Shown in pieces: positions 23,848 to 47,120 of a stretch of 64,000 nt of DNA. Each line of letters begins with the position of its first letter. The first letter of the stretch is position 1. This stretch comes from Candidatus Poseidoniaceae archaeon. GTDB taxonomy: Archaea > Thermoplasmatota > Poseidoniia > Poseidoniales > Poseidoniaceae. The notes beneath the pieces are model-generated. The model had not been told where the DNA came from. It searched no databases and worked only from the letters and a program-made list of their open reading frames with translations. The stretch lies in assembly GCA_949372875.1 (NCBI GenBank), contig CASIAW010000004.1, positions 124,001 through 188,000 on the forward strand, written 5' to 3'. The position numbers and the translations under genes were made by a program.

Positions 23848-25227
23848 TCAAGCTCGGTTATCTGGGTGGTACTTGTCGATCCACTTTTGGTCAAGACGGA
23901 CAAGATACTTTGTATCGATAGCAGCCATAAGGTTCCAGCACAGGTCGAGGGTTTCCTCGATTGAGCGGTCTTCATCACGGGTTTGGCGAAGGAACTTGTC
24001 TTCGAAAACTCCAGAGAAGTCAAGCAGTTGCTTGTCACGTTCATTCAATGCATCTTCACCAACAATAGCGACAAGTCCACGAAGTTCGCGTCCTTGAGCG
24101 TATGCTGCATACATTTGGTCAGAAACAGACTTGTGGTCTTCACGAGTGGTTTTCTCACCGATACATGAACCCATCAAACGAGAGAGAGATGGAAGAACGT
24201 TGATTGGCGGATAGATACCTTGTTGGTGCAATTCACGTGAAATAACAATTTGTCCTTCCGTAATATATCCGGACAAATCAGGAATCGGGTGCGTAATATC
24301 GTCACCAGGCATGGTTAGAATTGGGAATTGAGTGATTGAACCCTTCTTGTTCTTGATAATTCCCGCACGTTCGTAAAGCATAGCCAAATCGGTATACATG
24401 TAACCTGGGTAACCACGTCGTCCTGGAACTTCTTCACGAGCAGCACCAATTTGACGAAGAGCGTCACAGTAGTTGGTCATGTCAGTATAGATGACCAGAA
24501 CGTGATAATCCTTTTCGAAAGCAAGGTATTCAGCTGCAGTCAATGCGAGACGAGGCGTAATGATACGCTCGACAGCAGGGTCGTCAGCAAGGTTGACGAA
24601 CAAAACCGCATTCTCAAGAGCACCAGTTCGCTCCAAATCGGAACGGAAGAAATTGTATTCTTCAGCGGTAATTCCCATAGCGCAGAACACAACAATAAAT
24701 TCTTCATCAGAATCCTTGAGTTTTGCTTGACGAGCAATTTGCAGAGCGATATCATTGTGTGGAAGACCTGATGCCGAGAAAATTGGCAACTTCTGTCCAC
24801 GGACAAGACTTGTACACAGGTCGATTGCAGAGACACCGGTTTGAATGAAATCGTTTGGACTCTGTCGGCTGTATGGATTGATAGCAGCACCAATGATGTC
24901 TGCCTTTTCTTCAGCGACAATCTCTGGTCCGCCGTCACGAGGACGACCTGCACCATCGAGAATTCGACCGACCAAGTCAGTACTCACTGGGAGTTTGAAA
25001 ACATCACCCATGAAGGTGACACCGGATTCTCGGTCAATCTTGGAGGTTCCTTCGAAAACTTGGACAATCACGAGGTCGTCCGAGGTATCGAGAACTTGTC
25101 CGTTCTTGATGGTACCATTTGAGAGTCGTAGGGTAACGATTTCACCAAAGGCAACAGGTTCAGTTTTGTTCAAAAAGACCAGAGGTCCTTTCACGTCAGT
25201 AATGGTTCGGTATTCTTTTCCAGTCAT
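23848..25227 (-). CDS. atpB: A-type ATP synthase subunit B (non-catalytic)
   Basis: Non-catalytic subunit alternating with AtpA in the A1 hexamer. [20 protein letters not shown] is the family start, so ATG 25227 is preferred. An in-frame ATG at 25272 lies inside the end of atpA and would add 15 unconserved residues. The degenerate P-loop region is [20 protein letters not shown], lacking the Walker lysine as expected for subunit B. Family segments [20 protein letters not shown] and [20 protein letters not shown] are intact. The gene lies 13 bases after the atpA stop. The C-terminus is [16 protein letters not shown]. Confidence 0.96.
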
Positions 25228-25240
25228 GATATTCCTCTCC

Positions 25241-26980
25241 TCAGTTTTCCTCCACCGTATCGGCGATTTCATCGGTCATTTTCTTGACCATGTCAGCAAT
25301 GACGTCAATGTATCCCTTTTCGAATCGGCCTCGCATGAGGTCGGAACGAGCTGGAACGTTGACAACATCGTTGAGAACAGCACCGTTTGCCATAGCAGAC
25401 TTTGCTGCGTCTTGGAATGATAAGATTGCCTTAGCCATCTGGTATTGCAGGTGAATGTCACAGTATGCGTCAACATCGTGGAATCCGTTTTGTTGCAAAA
25501 AGAATTCACGGATCATACGAGCGACTTCAAGAGTCAATTGCTGATCTGTAGGTAGAGCATCGGAACCGACCAGTTGGACAATTTCTTGCAACTCGGATTC
25601 AATCTGGAGCAAACCACTGATTTGTGTTCGGACTTCTGGGAAGTCTTGAGAGATGTTATCTCGGAACCATTGGTCGAGGCTTTGCGGGTAGAGTGAATAC
25701 GAATTCAACCAGTTGATTGCAGGGAAGTGCCGTTGTCGGGCGAGACCTGCATCCAATCCCCAGAATACCTTGACAATACGAAGAGTTCCTTGAGAAACCG
25801 GTTCGGAAATGTCTCCACCAGGAGGGGAAACCGCACCGATAACTGTGACTGAGCCGTCGTCGCCGTTGAGGGTTTCAACACGGCCAGCACGTTCGTAGAA
25901 TTCTGCGATACGAGAAGACAAGTAAGCCGGATATCCTTCTTCACCAGGCATCTCTTCCAATCGAGAGGAAATTTCACGCATTGCTTCAGCCCAACGAGAA
26001 GTTGAGTCTGCCATCAAAGCGACGTCATAGCCCATATCACGGAAGTATTCTGCGATGGTGATTCCAGTATACACTGATGCTTCACGAGCAGCCACAGGCA
26101 TGTTCGAGGTGTTTGCAATCATGACGGTTCGCTCCATCAGGGGCTTACCGGTGTTTGGATCAATCAAGTGAGGGAATTCGTCCAACACTTCAGTCATCTC
26201 ATTTCCACGCTCACCGCATCCGATGTAAACAACGAGTTGAGCGTCAGAATACTTTGCAAGTGATTGTTGAGTGACGGTCTTTCCAGATCCGAATGGTCCA
26301 GGAATACCTGCTGCTCCACCCTTAGCCAGTGGGAACAAGAAATCGAGAATTCTCATTCCAGTGATGAGAGGTGTTTCAGGTGCATACTTTTGTTGGAAAG
26401 GTCGAGGTGTTCGAACTGGCCACTTCTGCATCATCTGCATTTCAGTGCCGTCTTCGAGAACACACACGGTTTGTGTAACGTTGAAATCGCCTGATTCAAT
26501 CGATTTAACAACGCCACCGACGGTAGGAGGTACCATGATTTTGTGAACGATTGTCTCGGTTTCTTGAACGTGTCCAATAACTTGTCCTGCAACCACTTCA
26601 TCGCCAGCAGCGACTTGAGGTTCAAAGGTCCAAATCTTTTCGAGGTCGAAAGCATCTGCGTCAACACCACGAGTGATGAAAACACCCATTTCTTCTTCCA
26701 AGGTTGGAAGAGGACGCTGGATACCGTCGTAAATCTGAGTCAAGAGACCTGGACCGAGAGAAACGGACAGTGTTTCTTGCGTATTCAACACTGGCTCACC
26801 AGGACGGATACCAGAGGTATCTTCGTACACTTGGATAACGGCTTTATCGCCGTGCAGTTCAATTACTTCGCCCATTAAACCTTCTTCACCAACACGAACG
26901 ACGTCATACATTGCAGCTTTCATGCCAGTTGCGGTTACAACAGGACCGGATATTCGGTAAATTACTCCTTCATTGCTCAT
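25241..26980 (-). CDS. atpA: A-type ATP synthase subunit A (catalytic)
   Basis: Catalytic subunit of the A1 hexamer. The P-loop is [14 protein letters not shown], followed by the conserved [11 protein letters not shown] and [20 protein letters not shown]. The non-homologous insert typical of A/V-type catalytic subunits is present near residues 110-200. The length of 579 is normal and no intein is present. The start at ATG 26980 is fixed by a GGAGG at 26989-26993, 8 bases upstream; an in-frame ATG at 26995 is less likely. It lies 28 bases after the atpF stop. Confidence 0.97.
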
Positions 26981-26988
26981 TTTTTTTT

Positions 26989-26993
26989 CCTCC
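26989..26993 (-). promoter_or_regulatory. Ribosome binding site of atpA
   Basis: GGAGG followed by eight bases (all A) before ATG 26980 on the minus strand. It decides between two in-frame starts and shows that this genome uses Shine-Dalgarno initiation inside operons. Confidence 0.8.
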
Positions 26994-27008
26994 ATATGGT
27001 TTGGAATA

Positions 27009-27308
27009 TTACTTCCACAGGTCGACTCCTATTGCCTTACGAATTGTGTCTCGCAAGGTAGTGTCTTCTTCCGTTCCAATGCCAAGCACGGTCGGAGAGA
27101 CGGATGCCGAGAGTTGGTCACGAAGACGCTCCGGCAGCGTTGTTAGGATTGAGGAGTCAACCACGACAATCCCTACGCTCTTATTGTTGAGTAGTTTCTT
27201 GAAGGTCGAGACTGTTGCCTCTTCGCCTTCAGGGTTATGCAGGTTATCAATTCCTGCAAGTTGGAATCCAAGGGTGAATTCTGGTGTTCCAACAACTGCG
27301 ATATCCAT
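27009..27308 (-). CDS. atpF: A-type ATP synthase subunit F
   Basis: Small central-stalk subunit with a Rossmann-like fold. It begins [20 protein letters not shown], which is the family start, and contains the [23 protein letters not shown] segment in mid-protein. The length of 99 is typical. The ATG at 27308 is preceded by GAGGTGA, a ribosome binding site about 6 bases upstream. The atpC stop lies 11 bases upstream. No unusual features. Confidence 0.93.
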
Positions 27309-27319
27309 ATTTCTTCACC

Positions 27320-28366
27320 TCACAAAATGTGTGCTTCAAGCACTTCAATAGATAATCCAGCAAGCCGCCCACGAACGATTAGGCGGAGGTCATTCACTTC
27401 TTGGACCTTCATGGCCACATAGTGAATTACCGGTAGTGCAGATACTGGATGGAGGAAGCTCATTCGCTTCATGATGGCGTATTCTCGTTCCTTGAACCAT
27501 GTTACCACAGGGTCAAGGCTGTTCATCTCTTTGGATGCGGAAAGGGCTCCTTCAAACGCAGGGAAATCAAAACGGCTTGAAGCGCGTAATACATCCATAG
27601 CAGCGTCTCTTCCACCTGCAGCAATCGATGAGAAAGCACGAGCAGGTATGAGACGTCCACCGGGGACGAGCATTGATACAATTTCATCAGATGAAATACC
27701 GACCGCTTCTGCCTCGAGAATATTCATGAGGTTTCGATGGTCGATTTCAGCACCGAGAAGATCTCTTAAGAAGCGAACGTCTGCTCCTTTACCTTTCAAT
27801 GAATCCAATGCTTTCTTGAAGTAATGGACATCGAGGGCATCTTCGTAATCAGAGAGCCGGGCATCTTCAGCAACTGCCAAGAGAGCAGGACCAAACGACT
27901 TGCGGCGCATCTGAACGACTGCGGAGCGCAAATCGTCAGCGCTTTCGATGATTTTTAACCAAGGAGTATTGATATCGTTCAACTCAGGAAGAATTGAATG
28001 AGACACCTTTTCAAGTTCAACATCATTGACAACTGCACGGAGTACAACTTTCGCATTATAGTATTCAAAACGAGAGGTGTATGTCTCGACGATGTTTCGG
28101 ATTTTTCCGTTGCACATCGAGAGCATGTGCTCAAGTTCATGTTCGAGGTTGTGAGACAGTGCTGCCTCAACCAAATCCCCACCCGACAACTGTCCAGCAT
28201 AGATATCAATCTCTGCACGGTATCCAATTTCGCCAACCGCAACGGTCAACTGGTCAGGTGATTGGTTGATTAGTTGGCGTAGCCTGGCACGGTCCGCAAG
28301 CTTCTGCCGACGCGCCTTTGCACGGGCAGCAACATAAGGTGTATTTCCAAGCATTACCATCATCAT
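27320..28366 (-). CDS. atpC: A-type ATP synthase subunit C
   Basis: Funnel-shaped socket that joins the central stalk to the membrane ring (V-type subunit d relative). The 348 residues are rich in helices. Family-like segments include NTPYVAARAKARRQKL at the start, LLGAEIDHRNLMNILEAEAV in the middle and PVSALPVIHYVAMKVQEVND near the end. Several ATGs crowd the start (28366, 28363, 28360, 28354); the first gives a three-base gap after atpE. The exact initiator is uncertain by a few codons. Confidence 0.93.
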   Translation of the reverse strand: MMMVMLGNTPYVAARAKARRQKLADRARLRQLINQSPDQLTVAVGEIGYRAEIDIYAGQLSGGDLVEAALSHNLEHELEHMLSMCNGKIRNIVETYTSRFEYYNAKVVLRAVVNDVELEKVSHSILPELNDINTPWLKIIESADDLRSAVVQMRRKSFGPALLAVAEDARLSDYEDALDVHYFKKALDSLKGKGADVRFLRDLLGAEIDHRNLMNILEAEAVGISSDEIVSMLVPGGRLIPARAFSSIAAGGRDAAMDVLRASSRFDFPAFEGALSASKEMNSLDPVVTWFKEREYAIMKRMSFLHPVSALPVIHYVAMKVQEVNDLRLIVRGRLAGLSIEVLEAHIL

Positions 28367-28369
28367 CCC

Positions 28370-28933
28370 TCAATCAAAAAGTATAGAATTTATTTCAGCA
28401 AGTTGAGCATTCCAAGAAGACTCGAGCAGTGTATCAAAGCGCATGTCGTAAGAGACAGAGCCATCAGGTGATTCGAGAACAAAGCCACCAAGTCCGTCTG
28501 TTGCTTCACCAACCTTGCGCTTTCCGGCTAATTCGGAGAGTGCTTTACGGTCAATTTCAACTGGACGAATCGAGTAGTCGTTTCCACCAATCTTGTCGGC
28601 TTTGGCCATCAAAGACTTGAGCAGACTTGCTCTTCCTGACAGTTTCGGGCTTCCAAGTTCTTCACTGGCCGAGTGAAGGGTCTCATCGAGAACCTTTCGT
28701 CGGGCAACGAGAATTTCCTTTTGGTTTGCTTGGCGAGCACTGGCCACGACTTCACGGGCAATCTGAGATGCCTCACGTTCTGTTCGAGTTAGTGCTTCCG
28801 AGCGGATGCTATCGGCCTTGGAGTTTGCTTCGGCAAGAATTGCCTTAGCGTCATCCTTAGCAGATTGTATCATTGCAGAGGCCTCAGCCTCAGCAGATTT
28901 AGCGATATCTTTTGCGAGTGTTTCAAGCGTCAT
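28370..28933 (-). CDS. atpE: A-type ATP synthase subunit E
   Basis: Peripheral stalk subunit pairing with AtpH. The long N-terminal helix, alanine- and charge-rich with regular heptad character (SAEAEASAMIQSAKDDAKAI), is followed by a small globular C-terminal head. The length of 187 is normal. The ATG at 28933 is the first in frame, and the stop lies 3 bases before atpC. Together with AtpH this makes the stator to which subunit I attaches, which matters because subunit I here carries EF-hands. Confidence 0.9.
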   Translation of the reverse strand: MTLETLAKDIAKSAEAEASAMIQSAKDDAKAILAEANSKADSIRSEALTRTEREASQIAREVVASARQANQKEILVARRKVLDETLHSASEELGSPKLSGRASLLKSLMAKADKIGGNDYSIRPVEIDRKALSELAGKRKVGEATDGLGGFVLESPDGSVSYDMRFDTLLESSWNAQLAEINSILFD

Positions 28934-28998: not shown

Positions 28999-29310
28999 TT
29001 AAAGGAAGAGTGGCAAAGCACCGAGAATCACGATGGATTCCGGCAACGCAGTGAAAATGAGTGCAACACCGAATTTGCTTCCGTCTTCAGCAAGCATACC
29101 GACAGCTGCGCTGCCAATGGCTGCTTGAGAGAGACCTGCACCAATTGCTGCAAGTCCGAGGGCAATTCCAGCACCGATTGCAGAGTAACCAGATCCGTCG
29201 GATTGGGTTAGTTCTGGGTCATCAGCTGCTGCGACCCCTTGAGCAACCATGGTAATGGCTGCCAATAGGATCAGTGTTCTTAGGCTCATTTTTAGGGTAT
29301 TTACGTTCAT
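28999..29310 (-). CDS. atpK: A-type ATP synthase subunit K (proteolipid ring, single hairpin with signal peptide)
   Basis: Membrane ring subunit that carries the coupling ion. A leader of about 28 residues (LRTLILLAAITMVAQGVAAA) resembles a cleavable signal peptide, then two membrane helices follow, so it is a single-hairpin form. The ion-binding glutamate is in TALPESIVILG on helix 2. Helix 1 carries GLSQAAIG. Aligned with the Na+-binding motif of Ilyobacter c-subunit as I remember it, Gln32, Glu65 and Ser66 equivalents are present, but Thr67 and Tyr70 are replaced by Ile and Leu. Coupling ion (H+ or Na+) is thus undecided. The start at ATG 29310 is supported by GGAGGT at 29318-29323. Confidence 0.93.
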   Translation of the reverse strand: MNVNTLKMSLRTLILLAAITMVAQGVAAADDPELTQSDGSGYSAIGAGIALGLAAIGAGLSQAAIGSAAVGMLAEDGSKFGVALIFTALPESIVILGALPLFL

Positions 29311-29340: not shown

Positions 29341-31686
29341 CTATGATTTACTCTCCACATGGAGATTACGGCCACCAAGCGGTGCGAATGCACTGCCAGA
29401 CCCGTCGTAGAATTTGCCCATCCATTCCACAAAGTGGAGACGGGCTGCGTGAATTGTAGGGGAAAGGATTCCCAAAGCGATAGCGAAGACTTGAATGAAG
29501 AGGAAGAGCACAAGACAGAGTAAACCGACGAGTATGCCAGTGGCTTCTCCGCTGGTGAATGCATCCATCATCGGCTCAAAGCCCATGGTGATGGAAACTT
29601 CTGCAATCTTGACGCCAGCAACACCAACGGCCATAATCCGTAGGTAAGAGAGTGTGTTGGCAAGAAGGCCAAAGGTTTCGATTGGACCCATGATGAGTCC
29701 ACCGGCCCAGCCAAACTTCTCAAAGATGGCTAATCCGATAATGAGACTAATGATGCCGACGATAAGCAGAACGGTCCAAATTTGGAATTCAAACAATTCA
29801 TTGTAGCCTGAAACCATGTTGCGGCATTGCATGAAGCCGCCAATGAGGATGAGAATCCAGGAGCCCTTTTCGAAGTAAGCCGCTGCAGCTCCGTGTGCTC
29901 TGAAGACATTGACCAGGCCGAGGATGTAACCCAAGAAGATGTGAATCGCTCCAAGGTAAACAGAGAGAATAACATATTCTTGCAATCCGTGACCGGCTGA
30001 TGCACGGTGGAAAGGCATGTGAAGGCCGCCAAGATTGAGGAGTTCGGCCATTGCTTCAGGGACGTGGACATTTGCATAAGTCCAGACATAGAAACTGTCG
30101 AACGGTGAATCTGAGCCCATTTGACCAGTATTGTCCCAAACAAAGCCAAAGCCTTCTGCGAAAACAATTCCCCAAATAATACACCATACGCCCATCCATC
30201 GCAAGATAGTGAGGCCTTTCTGCGCCAATGGGTCGACTGCAAATGCTTTGCTGCCGAGCCATCCTGCCAAAAGTAACAAGACAATCCCATAGCCCCAGTC
30301 GCCCAAAATCATTCCGTAGATGAACGGGAATGTCATCATCATGAGCGTAGTTGGGTCGAATGTTCCGTACTTTGGACGGCCGACCAAATCCACCATCAAT
30401 TCAAAGGGTTCGGAAGTCGAGCCGTTTGTGTATTGAATAGGTGGTTCAGGTTCCGGGTGGTCGTCATGAACCGGTGTATTACGAATCCGGGTAAGGGAGA
30501 TGTCCAGTTCAGGGAGATTGATTTGCCCATCACCATCAAGGTCAACTGCAGAGACGAGTTTGCCCATTTCCCACGGAGGTAGGTCTGCAATATTCGCGTT
30601 CTTAAGGGCTCTTTGGAACTCATAACAATCCACGAGACCTGATTCATCCAAGTCAATGGTGCTGAAGAATTCAAAAATCGTCTGGTTTGACTTTTGAAGG
30701 TAATTCGAGAGCATGACGAGTTCTTCCGGATCAGGTGTGCCTTGGTCTTCATGAGATTCATGATGATGATGGCCGCCTTCGTAGGCTTCGATAGTGACGT
30801 GTGAAGCAACTTCGCTCAAGCGGCTTTGAACTTCATCGGCTTGGTCGGTAGGGACCCAGCCATCCAATGCAAACGCTTGATTGCTAACAGCGACCAAGGT
30901 TGGAGCGGTAAAAATCGCTGCTTCTCGAACAAGATATTCTTCAACAGCCACGAGTTTGCGACCATTTTTAATAGCCCAAGTATCGAGGTTTTCTTGAGTT
31001 TCAGCAATCTTAGATTCCAGTCCAGTAATCTCTTTTATGAGTGCTTTGGCTTTTTCAGCAGGAGAGCCTTCGCCTGCTGGAATTTGAACTGGTTTCGAGC
31101 CCAACTCTGCCATGCAGATTTGAACTTCAGCGGAATGCTCTGGCCGGCAAGCAACTGCAATAAGTCCGCCAGCAGCATGCAATTCGATTTCTGAGCGAAT
31201 ATCTGAAAAAACTTCAGAGGCCTTGGAGGCTCGACGAGTTTCACCTACGAAGACTTCCACGCCGCCGTAGCCGCCCATCAACTCAAGAGGAAGGTCAAGC
31301 GGAGCCAAGCGACTGAGAACGTGATGTTGTTCTTGGGAAGAAGAAATGGTAGACTCTGACTCTCGGATAGTGTTGATGTAAGTGAGAGCTGTAGAGACTT
31401 TTTCTCCAAACTCTTCAACAAGTTTTGACGCTTCCTTGTGAGACATTGCGCCCTCCGTGTTGACCGCTTGAACTGCTGATGAAACCGCTTGAACCTTAAC
31501 AAGAAGGTTACTGATGGCGTTGGCTTCCTCGGAATCCATGGACTTTCCGACATTGATGCCGTCTTCAAACCGGCCGTATTCTTGAATGTGGACGCATGAA
31601 AGTTCGGTGCAAAGACGGAGGACTTCCTCCATTTTTTCGACAGGACCTGCTACTGTAAGACGGGACATCTCAGAAGTAGCAAACAT
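29341..31686 (-). CDS. atpI: A-type ATP synthase subunit I (a-subunit) with inserted EF-hand pair
   Basis: Stator membrane subunit forming the ion half-channels. The N-terminal cytoplasmic dumbbell occupies residues 1-300, with coiled coils. The membrane domain starts at FPFIYGMILGDWGYG (453-467) and holds about seven to eight segments, with the essential arginine in NTLSYLRIMAVGVAG. Between these, residues about 303-425 are an insert. It opens with GGHHHHESHEDQ and carries two EF-hand loops: D345-x-D347-x-S349-G350 ending at E356, and D382-x-D384-x-D386-G387 ending at E393. It closes with an acidic, proline-rich linker before the family segment EPFELMVDLVGRPKYGTFDP. The reading frame is uninterrupted, so this is a true domain insertion. 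Ca2+ control of the enzyme is inferred. Confidence 0.94.
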   Translation of the reverse strand: MFATSEMSRLTVAGPVEKMEEVLRLCTELSCVHIQEYGRFEDGINVGKSMDSEEANAISNLLVKVQAVSSAVQAVNTEGAMSHKEASKLVEEFGEKVSTALTYINTIRESESTISSSQEQHHVLSRLAPLDLPLELMGGYGGVEVFVGETRRASKASEVFSDIRSEIELHAAGGLIAVACRPEHSAEVQICMAELGSKPVQIPAGEGSPAEKAKALIKEITGLESKIAETQENLDTWAIKNGRKLVAVEEYLVREAAIFTAPTLVAVSNQAFALDGWVPTDQADEVQSRLSEVASHVTIEAYEGGHHHHESHEDQGTPDPEELVMLSNYLQKSNQTIFEFFSTIDLDESGLVDCYEFQRALKNANIADLPPWEMGKLVSAVDLDGDGQINLPELDISLTRIRNTPVHDDHPEPEPPIQYTNGSTSEPFELMVDLVGRPKYGTFDPTTLMMMTFPFIYGMILGDWGYGIVLLLLAGWLGSKAFAVDPLAQKGLTILRWMGVWCIIWGIVFAEGFGFVWDNTGQMGSDSPFDSFYVWTYANVHVPEAMAELLNLGGLHMPFHRASAGHGLQEYVILSVYLGAIHIFLGYILGLVNVFRAHGAAAAYFEKGSWILILIGGFMQCRNMVSGYNELFEFQIWTVLLIVGIISLIIGLAIFEKFGWAGGLIMGPIETFGLLANTLSYLRIMAVGVAGVKIAEVSITMGFEPMMDAFTSGEATGILVGLLCLVLFLFIQVFAIALGILSPTIHAARLHFVEWMGKFYDGSGSAFAPLGGRNLHVESKS
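30508..30654 (-). other. EF-hand pair encoded inside atpI
   Basis: Two canonical 12-residue calcium loops, DLDESGLVDCYE and DLDGDGQINLPE, separated by 25 residues of helix-compatible sequence, as in a paired EF-hand lobe. All Ca2+-ligand positions (1, 3, 5, 9 and 12) carry D, S, N or E, and glycine is at position 6 in both. A histidine cluster (HHHHESH) lies about 35 residues ahead. Confidence 0.88.
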
Positions 31687-31695
31687 GGAAACGCC

Positions 31696-32007
31696 TCACT
31701 GTGATGATACAGCGTCAAGAAGATTCTTGACTGCTTTTTCTTTTCGACTGGATGCTGAAGATTCGATGGATTCGACAACAGAAGCGCCTTCTTTGAGAAC
31801 GGTATCTGCTTCTTTACCTGCTTTAGTGCGAGCAGCGTCAAGCGTTGCCTGCGTCTCTGAAACGGAATCTTCGGTAGCACCGGTGACAAGCGACGCTGCC
31901 TCTTTTCGAGCGTCAGCGGTAATTTTACCGGATTCGGTTTGAGCCGAAGAAAGTCGCTTTTCGGCAGACTGCTCGGCTTCTTTGATTTTTCGGAGGACAT
32001 CTTTCAT
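31696..32007 (-). CDS. atpH: A-type ATP synthase subunit H
   Basis: Peripheral stalk subunit forming a right-handed coiled coil with AtpE. The 103 residues from ATG 32007 (MKDVLRKIKEAEQSAEKRLS) are an almost unbroken charged, alanine-rich helix with a hendecad-like pattern. An in-frame upstream ATG at 32091 adds hydrophobic residues that do not fit the family. It is the first gene of the operon, so the ATP synthase promoter should lie between 32008 and about 32100, downstream of the methyltransferase stop. The atpI start follows 9 bases after its stop. Confidence 0.87.
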   Translation of the reverse strand: MKDVLRKIKEAEQSAEKRLSSAQTESGKITADARKEAASLVTGATEDSVSETQATLDAARTKAGKEADTVLKEGASVVESIESSASSRKEKAVKNLLDAVSSQ

Positions 32008-45776: not shown

Positions 45777-47003
45777 TCAACTGAGTGAATCCAAATCTGG
45801 GGCTTCAGGAACCTCAGAGGCTTCGAGATATTCATCGAATGAAACTGAACCATCACCATCTTTGTCAGCCTTCTTGTGAATGATTTCAGCCTCAGCAAAA
45901 GTCATGCCAGTAGCCTCAGCGAGTTCTTCTACAGAAAGGAGAGCACTACCATCTGAATCTGCATCTGCGAATTTGTTCTTGAGAGCATCTAATTCAGTTT
46001 CAAGTTCTCGCTTTAATCGCTCTCGGTCTGCTTTCGAGGATACATCGAAAGAACAGACTTGCATAATTGGATCGCCTTTGCTCAGTTCAGCGGTATATTC
46101 GGTCATTTCCCCACCACTGTTCACCATGATTTGGAACTTTGTTGGGTCTTTTGAACGTCGCTTATTGTGCTTTTTGTAGTAGTGAACATACACGTGGTAT
46201 TGACCACCAGGTGCAGTTCCTTCAGGCCAAAACACATTCTCAACAGGTTTACGGGTTTCCGCTCGAACATTCGCATCAACATCGAGTTCTCCACCGCAAG
46301 CAGAGATTTTGTTTCCTCCGTGAATACGTTCTCCCGAAGGACAGACAATGTGCAAATCGAGATCATTGAAATTGTTCCACATGAGTGAAACTTGAACGTC
46401 GGATGATTTGGCACCTTCACGTTCGAGGCGGGCTTGAAGTTCCTTGATGGCTTTTGAGTTTGAACTCGAGGAAGCAATTTTTTGCTGTTGCGCTGCAGCG
46501 ATTTCAGCGAGACGAGATTCTTCAGCAGCCAAGAAGTCTGCTTGACGTTGGTTCTCACGTTCTGCAGCAAGGCGAGACTCTTCTTCTTCACGTCGGCGAG
46601 CCTCATCTTGTTGGTCCCGAACTTTTTGAGCTGCTTCATTAGCGAGGCGGGACTCTTCTAGAGCTGCTGTTCTTGCCTCTTCCATCATACGCAGGCGCTC
46701 TGCTTCTTGTTGAGCACGAGTATGGTCAAGTTGATCTCGTGCTTGACGTTCAGCGTTTTCAACAGCCAAACGGTTTGAGATCGCATGTTGCCGACGCCGG
46801 CGGTTTTCGACTTGGGCTAACTTTCGATCAATCTCAACTTTTGCGCTGCCAAAACCAGGAGTTCCGGTATCGTAACGCAGTCCTTCAGGGTTCATTCCAT
46901 GCTGAGCCGAGATAGTTACATCTTTACGGGTAAAGATATACCACAACCCAACAACAAATCCACCTACGAGGGCTATCGAAGTTACGACTGTTTCAACTCC
47001 CAT
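45777..47003 (-). CDS. Membrane-anchored coiled-coil protein with YfaP/DUF2135-like domain and C-terminal EF-hands
   Basis: Unknown family. From ATG 47003 (an ATG at 47018 adds five residues) there is one N-terminal membrane helix (TSIALVGGFVVGLWYIFT), then a charged coiled coil spanning about residues 60-205 in the longer numbering. A beta-sandwich domain at about 207-325 matches the YfaP/DUF2135 pattern, with NNFNDLDLHIVCPSGERIHG, ELDVDANVR and GGQYHVYVHYY. The C-terminus has a canonical EF-hand loop DKDGDGSVSFDE (385-396) and a variant loop DADSDGSALLSVEE (352-365), which is two residues longer than normal. Which side of the membrane the soluble part occupies is uncertain. It may sense Ca2+. 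Confidence 0.72.
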   Translation of the reverse strand: MGVETVVTSIALVGGFVVGLWYIFTRKDVTISAQHGMNPEGLRYDTGTPGFGSAKVEIDRKLAQVENRRRRQHAISNRLAVENAERQARDQLDHTRAQQEAERLRMMEEARTAALEESRLANEAAQKVRDQQDEARRREEEESRLAAERENQRQADFLAAEESRLAEIAAAQQQKIASSSSNSKAIKELQARLEREGAKSSDVQVSLMWNNFNDLDLHIVCPSGERIHGGNKISACGGELDVDANVRAETRKPVENVFWPEGTAPGGQYHVYVHYYKKHNKRRSKDPTKFQIMVNSGGEMTEYTAELSKGDPIMQVCSFDVSSKADRERLKRELETELDALKNKFADADSDGSALLSVEELAEATGMTFAEAEIIHKKADKDGDGSVSFDEYLEASEVPEAPDLDSLS

Positions 47004-47120
47004 TGTATATCGCAGCAAGTGCTAGTCTTTTGTAACATCGGTCGTAATATTTTGAGATTTCCCGCATGTTTTTACAAAAAATTGCTCAACATCTATCGTT
47101 TCATGAAATTTTAGGTTTGA

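Follow-up and report, generated by a model that had tools for sequence, protein, structure and literature searches.

The window, a stretch of 64,000 nucleotides of DNA from a Candidatus Poseidoniaceae archaeon of the order Poseidoniales (marine group II), carries on its minus strand an A-type ATP synthase operon with the gene order H-I-K-E-C-F-A-B (Table 1). AtpI, the stator subunit of this complex, is encoded by a single uninterrupted open frame. The whole protein matches the Pfam profile V_ATPase_I (PF01496; E-value: 5e-28). A Foldseek search with its predicted structure has Thermus V/A-ATPase subunit I (6r0z_N) as the top match (E-value: 5.8e-16), with a TM-score of 0.28 that is low because the AtpI model is weak. 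The profile match, the membrane half and the operon partners together identify the protein as an A-type subunit I/a.

Table 1. Features of the ATP synthase operon and of the AtpI insert (window positions; residues are those of AtpI)
Feature	Residues	Position	Strand	Remarks
AtpH-like subunit, upstream of AtpI		31696..32007	(-)	V-ATPase_G_2 E-value 9e-5, below the Pfam cut-off; name inferred
AtpI, stator a/I subunit of A-type ATP synthase, with EF-hand pair	781 aa	29341..31686	(-)	
His-rich linker HHHHESH	306-312	30751..30771	(-)	older than the insert; His-runs in insert-free AtpI
Insert proper	~313-410	~30457..30750	(-)	borders by eye, from alignment with insert-free AtpI
EF-hand pair core	320-402	30481..30729	(-)	
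EF loop 1, DLDESGLVDCYE	345-356	30619..30654	(-)	
EF loop 2, DLDGDGQINLPE	382-393	30508..30543	(-)	
Pro/acidic linker after the insert	411-423	30418..30456	(-)	PPI kept in insert-free AtpI
AtpK, rotor c-ring subunit		28999..29310	(-)	ATP-synt_C E-value 1e-11
AtpE, peripheral stalk		28370..28933	(-)	vATP-synt_E E-value 3e-13
AtpC, AC39/d-type subunit		27320..28366	(-)	vATP-synt_AC39 E-value 1e-47
AtpF		27009..27308	(-)	ATP-synt_F E-value 1.5e-14
AtpA, catalytic subunit		25241..26995	(-)	named by eye from sequence only
AtpB		23848..25272	(-)	named by eye from sequence only

AtpI contains an insert that is an EF-hand pair with two canonical predicted Ca2+ loops. An earlier note, made from the letters alone, had read such a pair within the one open frame, and the profile searches agree with it. 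Pfam gives EF-hand_7 (PF13499; E-value: 4e-7, 30.7 bits against a cut-off of 30 and so narrowly above it; 35.2 bits in a genome-wide search) and EF-hand_1 (E-value: 7e-7). A profile of the EF-hand family, built from 16 rows picked by hand (alignment A2), matches radial spoke protein 7 best among solved structures (E-value: 2.2e-15), followed by the CDPK 2aao (E-value: 1.8e-14) and by calmodulins (E-values from 8e-13). All 16 rows, which are drawn from four host proteins, have FF before loop 1, PP between the hands and PEL at the end of loop 2. The prolines form the Pro-Pro(-Trp) that stands between the two hands of the family's pairs; PP also occurs between the hands of EF-hand pairs in other proteins of these archaea (L105, L108).

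In an alignment of 61 AtpI proteins the pair appears as a clean insertion of approximately 95 residues. Relatives that lack it have a short His-rich linker at this site, followed by PPI. Both the His-run and the proline linker occur in insert-free AtpI; they therefore predate the insert and lie outside the module, and the insert proper can be narrowed to approximately residues 313-410. The insertion that the earlier note had placed at 30412-30780 is therefore real but shorter than proposed, and HHHHESH and the acidic proline linker, which it had counted as part of the insertion, are not. The His-run was also considered as a component of the Ca2+ module; this was ruled out by its occurrence in insert-free AtpI, and an analogous run is found in insert-free NuoL.

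The profile alignment to the a-subunits resumes at profile position 406-409, which corresponds to residue 307 of Thermus subunit I and residue 329 of the Enterococcus hirae protein. As this point comes right after the insert, the insert lies at the end of the cytoplasmic domain and before the membrane half, where it had been placed from the sequence. In enzymes of the A/V type, the corresponding region of subunit a lies beside the membrane, not far from the rotor and the peripheral stalk. The predicted structure of AtpI has a pLDDT of 60.7 and a pTM of 0.34. Over residues 321-400, where the block means of pLDDT are only 51-77, it has the elements H337-342, E351-353, H354-363, H374-381, E388-390 and H391-403. 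The expected helix-loop-helix pair is thus predicted, at low confidence. Placing the insert in three dimensions from this model was abandoned, as the model is too weak.

A search of AtpI homologues shows that the insertion is shared by near relatives. Of 59 genomes in the genus of the window, 46 have it and six do not; in the other seven the region was not found. The match extends over nearly the whole protein in 41 of the 46 and lies on broken or cut frames in the other five. Since six species of the genus have AtpI without the insert (G001, G006, G042, G047, G049 and G052), the insert is not essential to the ATP synthase. In the other genera of the family (25 genomes, in a phylum-wide search of 292 genomes) the AtpI matches break at the insert, and complete AtpI frames are 676-724 aa long, with some fragments. 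This search found no insert in AtpI of Poseidonia (genus g13, taken as Poseidonia). In the sister family the matches break at the insert site among the matches listed, and all eight aligned AtpI proteins are without it. A tree of AtpI computed without the insert columns (55 of 61 rows, six truncated or broken ones having been dropped) has 40 insert-bearing rows on one side of one branch. Presence of the insert needs one change on this tree (SH-aLRT 90; a quick tree without bootstrap, with a long-branch warning for the sister-family rows). A single gain in AtpI of the genus fits the tree.

Both loops are canonical (residues 1, 3, 5, 9 and 12 plus Gly6) in 46/46 AtpI inserts, with Glu at position 12 throughout. 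Canonical loops are likewise found in 50/51 scored rows of a second host with an oxidase-like fold, described below (51 of its 53 EF-bearing rows were scored), and in 20/21 rows of NuoL. Within the AtpI insert, conservation is 0.947 at the ligand and Gly6 positions versus 0.722 at the other positions, a value reached in 6 of 20,000 permutations. The dN/dS of the insert is 0.00-0.11 in 22 of 27 close pairs, which are non-independent, and the remaining five are saturated in dS; in the rest of AtpI, close pairs give 0.02-0.07. The low dN/dS and the conserved ligands indicate that selection maintains the EF-hand pair, and most of all its Ca2+ ligands. Its occurrence at the same place and in frame in 46 AtpI proteins, together with the ligands kept in all of them and the low dN/dS, shows that the insert is not a chance feature. 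Synonymous divergence peaks around the insert.

When the genomes of 84,980 species were scanned with the EF-hand alignment, 200 relatives were obtained, of which the best 80 lie on three hosts: 35 on a protein with a cbb3/NOR fold, 30 on AtpI and 15 on NuoL. All but one are titled Poseidoniales, Poseidoniaceae, Poseidonia, Euryarchaeota or euryarchaeote; the exception is titled Flavobacteriales. The module occurs on AtpI, NuoL and the oxidase-fold protein, with related pairs on a putative NuoJ, so that one calmodulin-like module recurs on energy-metabolism membrane proteins in this lineage, with hosts that differ by genus. The earlier note had missed both the further copy on another membrane protein of this genome and the module's presence on complex I of relatives. 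The window genome also encodes further, less similar EF-hand proteins (permease-like, cytoplasmic and secreted-looking), and EF-hands as such are therefore not confined to energy hosts. Two of its frames match Na_Ca_ex (CaCA exchanger).

The second copy in the window genome forms the C-terminus of a 655-aa membrane protein and is 63% identical to the AtpI insert. The N-terminal part of this host was found in 93 of 97 genomes searched; sister-family sequences are only 22-34% identical to it. The C-terminal EF-hand pair is present in 53/53 rows tested in the window genus, and 13/13 loci checked in nine further genera of the family encode the oxidase-fold host with the pair. The EF-bearing host was thus checked in ten genera of the family, genus g140 being left out, and one genome of g139 (G342) gave no match. 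Sister-family copies are without the pair in 9/9 aligned proteins. Structure alignments covered 32 of 35 oxidase-fold loci and 27 of 30 AtpI loci, the others holding N or being incomplete.

The model of the oxidase-fold host (pLDDT 76.4, pTM 0.72) matches in fold searches cbb3 CcoN (9g6b; E-value: 2e-9) and NOR (4xyd; E-value: 8e-7), at 12-14% identity, so that the protein has the predicted fold of the haem-copper oxidase subunit I superfamily. Sequence searches were less informative: Pfam COX1 matched 2/44 members, and the best 60 of 350 rows obtained with the family profile against PDB sequences are EF-hand proteins only. Haem-copper oxidase subunit I has six conserved His ligands of the haems and CuB. 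No His is invariant among the 44 aligned members of the oxidase-fold family (alignment A1, 44 of 62 rows used). Positions 84 and 268 are His in 35/35 rows of the window genus and in 0/9 and 2/9 sister-family rows, respectively. The missing histidines rule this host out as a working terminal oxidase, and because they are absent it may not pump protons at all. The window genome encodes a separate COX1 (E-value: 4.5e-140).

Complex I provides the remaining hosts. In genus g13 the EF-hand pair is inserted in NuoL, within a His-rich loop that NuoL proteins without the insert have as well. The NuoL match runs across the insert in all 21 genomes of this genus (15 over the whole length, six partial). 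In NuoL of other genera, including that of the window, the matches break at the insert among the matches listed. The host was confirmed for one member (L205; Proton_antipo_M E-value: 3e-61, Proton_antipo_N E-value: 1.8e-8). In g9, which belongs to the sister family, and in g16, a related pair is found on the putative second half of a split NuoJ. This half was assigned from its position and from a weak match to Oxidored_q3 (profile positions 78-146, E-value: 3e-3 in L107; profile positions 82-146, E-value: 4e-5 in L262; both under the curated cut-off). The neighbours in L107 are the first half of NuoJ (E-value: 1e-17) and NuoK (E-value: 4e-27). At the same loop as in g13, the NuoL of g9 carries another EF-hand pair, which is diverged. 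Long NuoL frames of g15 (832-847 aa) were considered as carriers of another insert and rejected, as ten g15 loci have none in the loop; the NuoL frames in the fetched g15 loci are 729-744 aa long. By the expected membrane topology, the loop of NuoL and the C-terminal ends of NuoJ and the oxidase-fold protein would face the cytoplasm.

EF-hand trees were computed to ask which host had the module first; they have only 83 columns, and one of them used 65 hand-chosen rows. The modules of NuoL form a clade, and so do those of NuoJ (support 100/100 and 100/99, from a bootstrap that had not converged); the AtpI modules are not one clade in either free tree. None of the constrained clades is rejected (p-AU 0.44 for AtpI, 0.47 for AtpI plus NuoL and 0.23 for the oxidase-fold host). 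The rows that branch deepest belong to the oxidase-fold host in genera other than that of the window, a hint that the module may be older on this host. The distribution agrees with an old oxidase-fold module that would later have been copied into AtpI and complex I.

A/V-type subunits I/a of Thermus thermophilus (6r0z_N) and E. hirae (8wci_P) belong to the same family (PF01496) as AtpI, which has the operon partners usual for it, but their profile alignment covers the membrane half and begins only after the insert of the archaeal protein. To our knowledge, both pass from the cytoplasmic to the membrane part without an EF-hand pair. Calmodulin and CDPK-type pairs likewise have two adjacent canonical loops. 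Calmodulin, however, is a free sensor, whereas here the domain lies inside an ATP synthase subunit and has Pro-Pro(-Trp) between its hands. We know of no other ATP synthase with a domain resembling a Ca2+ sensor inside its own stator. The earlier note had likewise known of no described ATP synthase with built-in EF-hands, and a full-text literature search found none among the matches listed by title or start of abstract, nor any EF-hands within NuoL or the haem-copper oxidase fold; most subscription journals and preprints fall outside the scope of this search. A further parallel is given by mEAK7 and Rtc5, EF-hand-like TLDc proteins that bind the V-ATPase from outside (PMC11066047). These also bring an EF-hand-like domain to a V-type rotary ATPase, but as separate proteins with a TLDc domain, whereas the EF-hands described here belong to the polypeptide of the stator itself. 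For the two Poseidoniales subgroups, including Ca. Poseidoniaceae, protein modules that contain calcium-binding domains and are specific to a subgroup have been reported, and signalling and protein interaction are suggested for them (PMC9258230). The parts of that article consulted describe these modules as calcium-binding in general terms and do not name ATP synthase, complex I or oxidase-fold hosts. The consulted parts of PMC11237513 contain nothing on EF-hands in these hosts.

The most likely role of the module is that of a cytosolic Ca2+ sensor tuning the proton circuit. For AtpI in particular, the inserted pair is on balance probably such a sensor at the stator hinge, where it would alter coupling or brake ATP hydrolysis. 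A calmodulin-like pair would have been inserted once, in the ancestor of most species of the genus, into an older His-rich linker of the stator. The concentration of Ca2+ in the cytosol is presumably low, and failure of the ion gradient that powers Ca2+ export would raise it. Binding of this Ca2+ would open the EF-hand pair or change its shape, and the change, by stiffening or shifting the stator hinge, would alter coupling or brake hydrolysis. We infer the Ca2+ binding, the cytosolic side, the conformational effect and the sign of the effect; the sign is a guess, for which a brake on hydrolysis or a change in coupling is preferred. Ca2+ could instead be bound permanently in the AtpI insert. 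A broader, tentative proposal is that the proton circuit of Poseidoniaceae is under Ca2+ control. A single kind of EF-hand cassette would have been plugged separately into AtpI, NuoL, NuoJ and the cofactor-less oxidase-fold protein, and cytosolic Ca2+, rising on gradient failure, would tune respiration and ATP synthesis together.

The chief rival to a sensor is docking, which is kept alive by the residues conserved beyond the ligands. The pairs would be always loaded with Ca2+, or would act as binding surfaces that tether respiratory complexes to each other or to a shared partner, and would not regulate turnover. The FF, PP and PEL shared across the four hosts would fit such a surface, and a module whose host subunit varies from genus to genus is easier to explain as a tether than as an allosteric switch that must be placed precisely. 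However, no partner is known, the PP may be a feature of the fold because other EF-hand pairs have it as well, and such conserved ligands would be needless for a pure tether, which makes docking rather unlikely. The His-run and EF-hands might alternatively buffer or sense Zn2+, Mg2+ or another divalent metal near the membrane, and in AtpI as in NuoL the site of insertion is indeed a His-rich loop. These loops also occur without EF-hands, however, and Glu at position 12 of an EF-loop, as found in both loops of every AtpI insert, favours Ca2+ over Mg2+; a role with another metal is improbable.

The module could also be a neutral passenger, a domain family that spreads by fusion and is tolerated at exposed loops. 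Its restriction to particular lineages, the sister species without the insert and the high synonymous divergence around it would suit this explanation, but the low dN/dS, the ligands preserved across the genus and the confinement of the best 80 of 200 relatives to three hosts make it highly improbable. Most of the genomes are metagenome-assembled, which raises the question of an artefact of assembly or binning. Yet the insert occupies one and the same site in 46 genomes, and in 41 of these the frame is nearly full-length. It is found in CM001443.1 (L331), a single-contig 2.06-Mb MG-II chromosome that is itself titled a MAG, and in AG-333-I22 (L273), whose title makes no mention of a MAG. Because independent genomes carry the insert, an artefact is very unlikely, to the point of being negligible.

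A cytosolic Ca2+ sensor is the preferred function. Because the module recurs on complex I of related genera, the insert is no isolated oddity but part of a pattern, the repeated recruitment of a sensor-like domain to energy-converting membrane proteins in widespread ocean archaea. The insert offers a testable route to the question of whether prokaryotes regulate oxidative phosphorylation by Ca2+, which is otherwise studied in mitochondria. The recurrent module points to Ca2+ signalling in archaeal physiology, and its presence on energy proteins suggests that calcium may tune energy production in these cells. A Ca2+-controlled circuit, if true, would be a prokaryotic, covalently built counterpart of the Ca2+ control of mitochondrial oxidative phosphorylation.

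The EF-hand pair of AtpI, the stator subunit of the A-type ATP synthase, recurs in a second host of the same genome, a conserved 655-residue membrane protein with the cbb3/NOR oxidase fold. In the aligned members of this protein the catalytic histidines are missing; it is possibly a pseudoenzyme of the haem-copper superfamily. The C-terminal EF-hands are found on it within the window's family, and 23 of the 44 aligned members have a SAP domain match. The gene is adjoined by those of a radical-SAM-like protein and a YchF-like GTPase, both named from sequence.

EF-hand proteins of the window's genome and of genus g9 (L, locus; G000, the window's own genome; C, contig)
Protein	Location	Strand	EF-hand pair score
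Oxidase-fold membrane protein	L031:4012-5979 (G000:C8)
Second EF-hand protein in the window, 413 aa	window 45777-47018	-	41.5 bits
Zinc-ribbon-like protein with EF-hand pairs	G000:C1:133819 (L105:3577-5481), also L108
His/Asp-rich protein with EF-hand-like loops	G000:C5:147755-148105 (L172)
NuoL of genus g9 with EF-hand pair	L107:2657-5614, also L265

Synonymous divergence in the AtpI insert (window 30457-30750) exceeds that of the remainder of the protein in 25 of 27 pairs, which are not independent and include five among the 25 with a saturated insert. It peaks in the segment starting at aa 339 of AtpI. No such peak is present in the copy on the oxidase-fold protein (rank 187 of 574). The raised divergence may reflect weaker codon constraint or recombination.

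Further proteins with EF-hands or EF-hand-like loops are encoded in this genome. In the 413-residue protein a single membrane segment lies at the N-terminus and the EF-hand pair at the C-terminus; part of the sequence resembles a coiled coil. In the zinc-ribbon-like protein, which has two such motifs besides a membrane segment, Leu-Pro-Pro separates the hands of a pair; its module is a diverged relative of that in AtpI (37%). The His/Asp-rich protein is very rich in these two residues and holds several loops resembling EF-hands; its C-terminus, judged by eye, looks like a metal-binding ABC component.

In two sister-family species (L040 and L041; genomes G060 and G093) the membrane half of AtpI is 56% identical to the window's; AtpI of the other sister-family species among the matches listed is 34-44% identical. 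These sequence identities suggest a possible exchange of the ATP synthase. A same-genus genome carries an additional AtpI whose type is that of the sister family (37%); the contig that encodes it measures 10.9 kb (L044, G044:C7) and is perhaps a contaminant. CALKHD010000188.1 (L318), titled Flavobacteriales, encodes an archaeal AtpI with EF-hands and is probably mis-binned.

The EF-hand pair in NuoL, a complex I subunit, of g9, a sister-family genus, is diverged and differs from the AtpI-type pair. The same His-rich NuoL loop holds the AtpI-type pair in Poseidonia and the diverged pair in g9. The two insertions are apparently separate events at one site.
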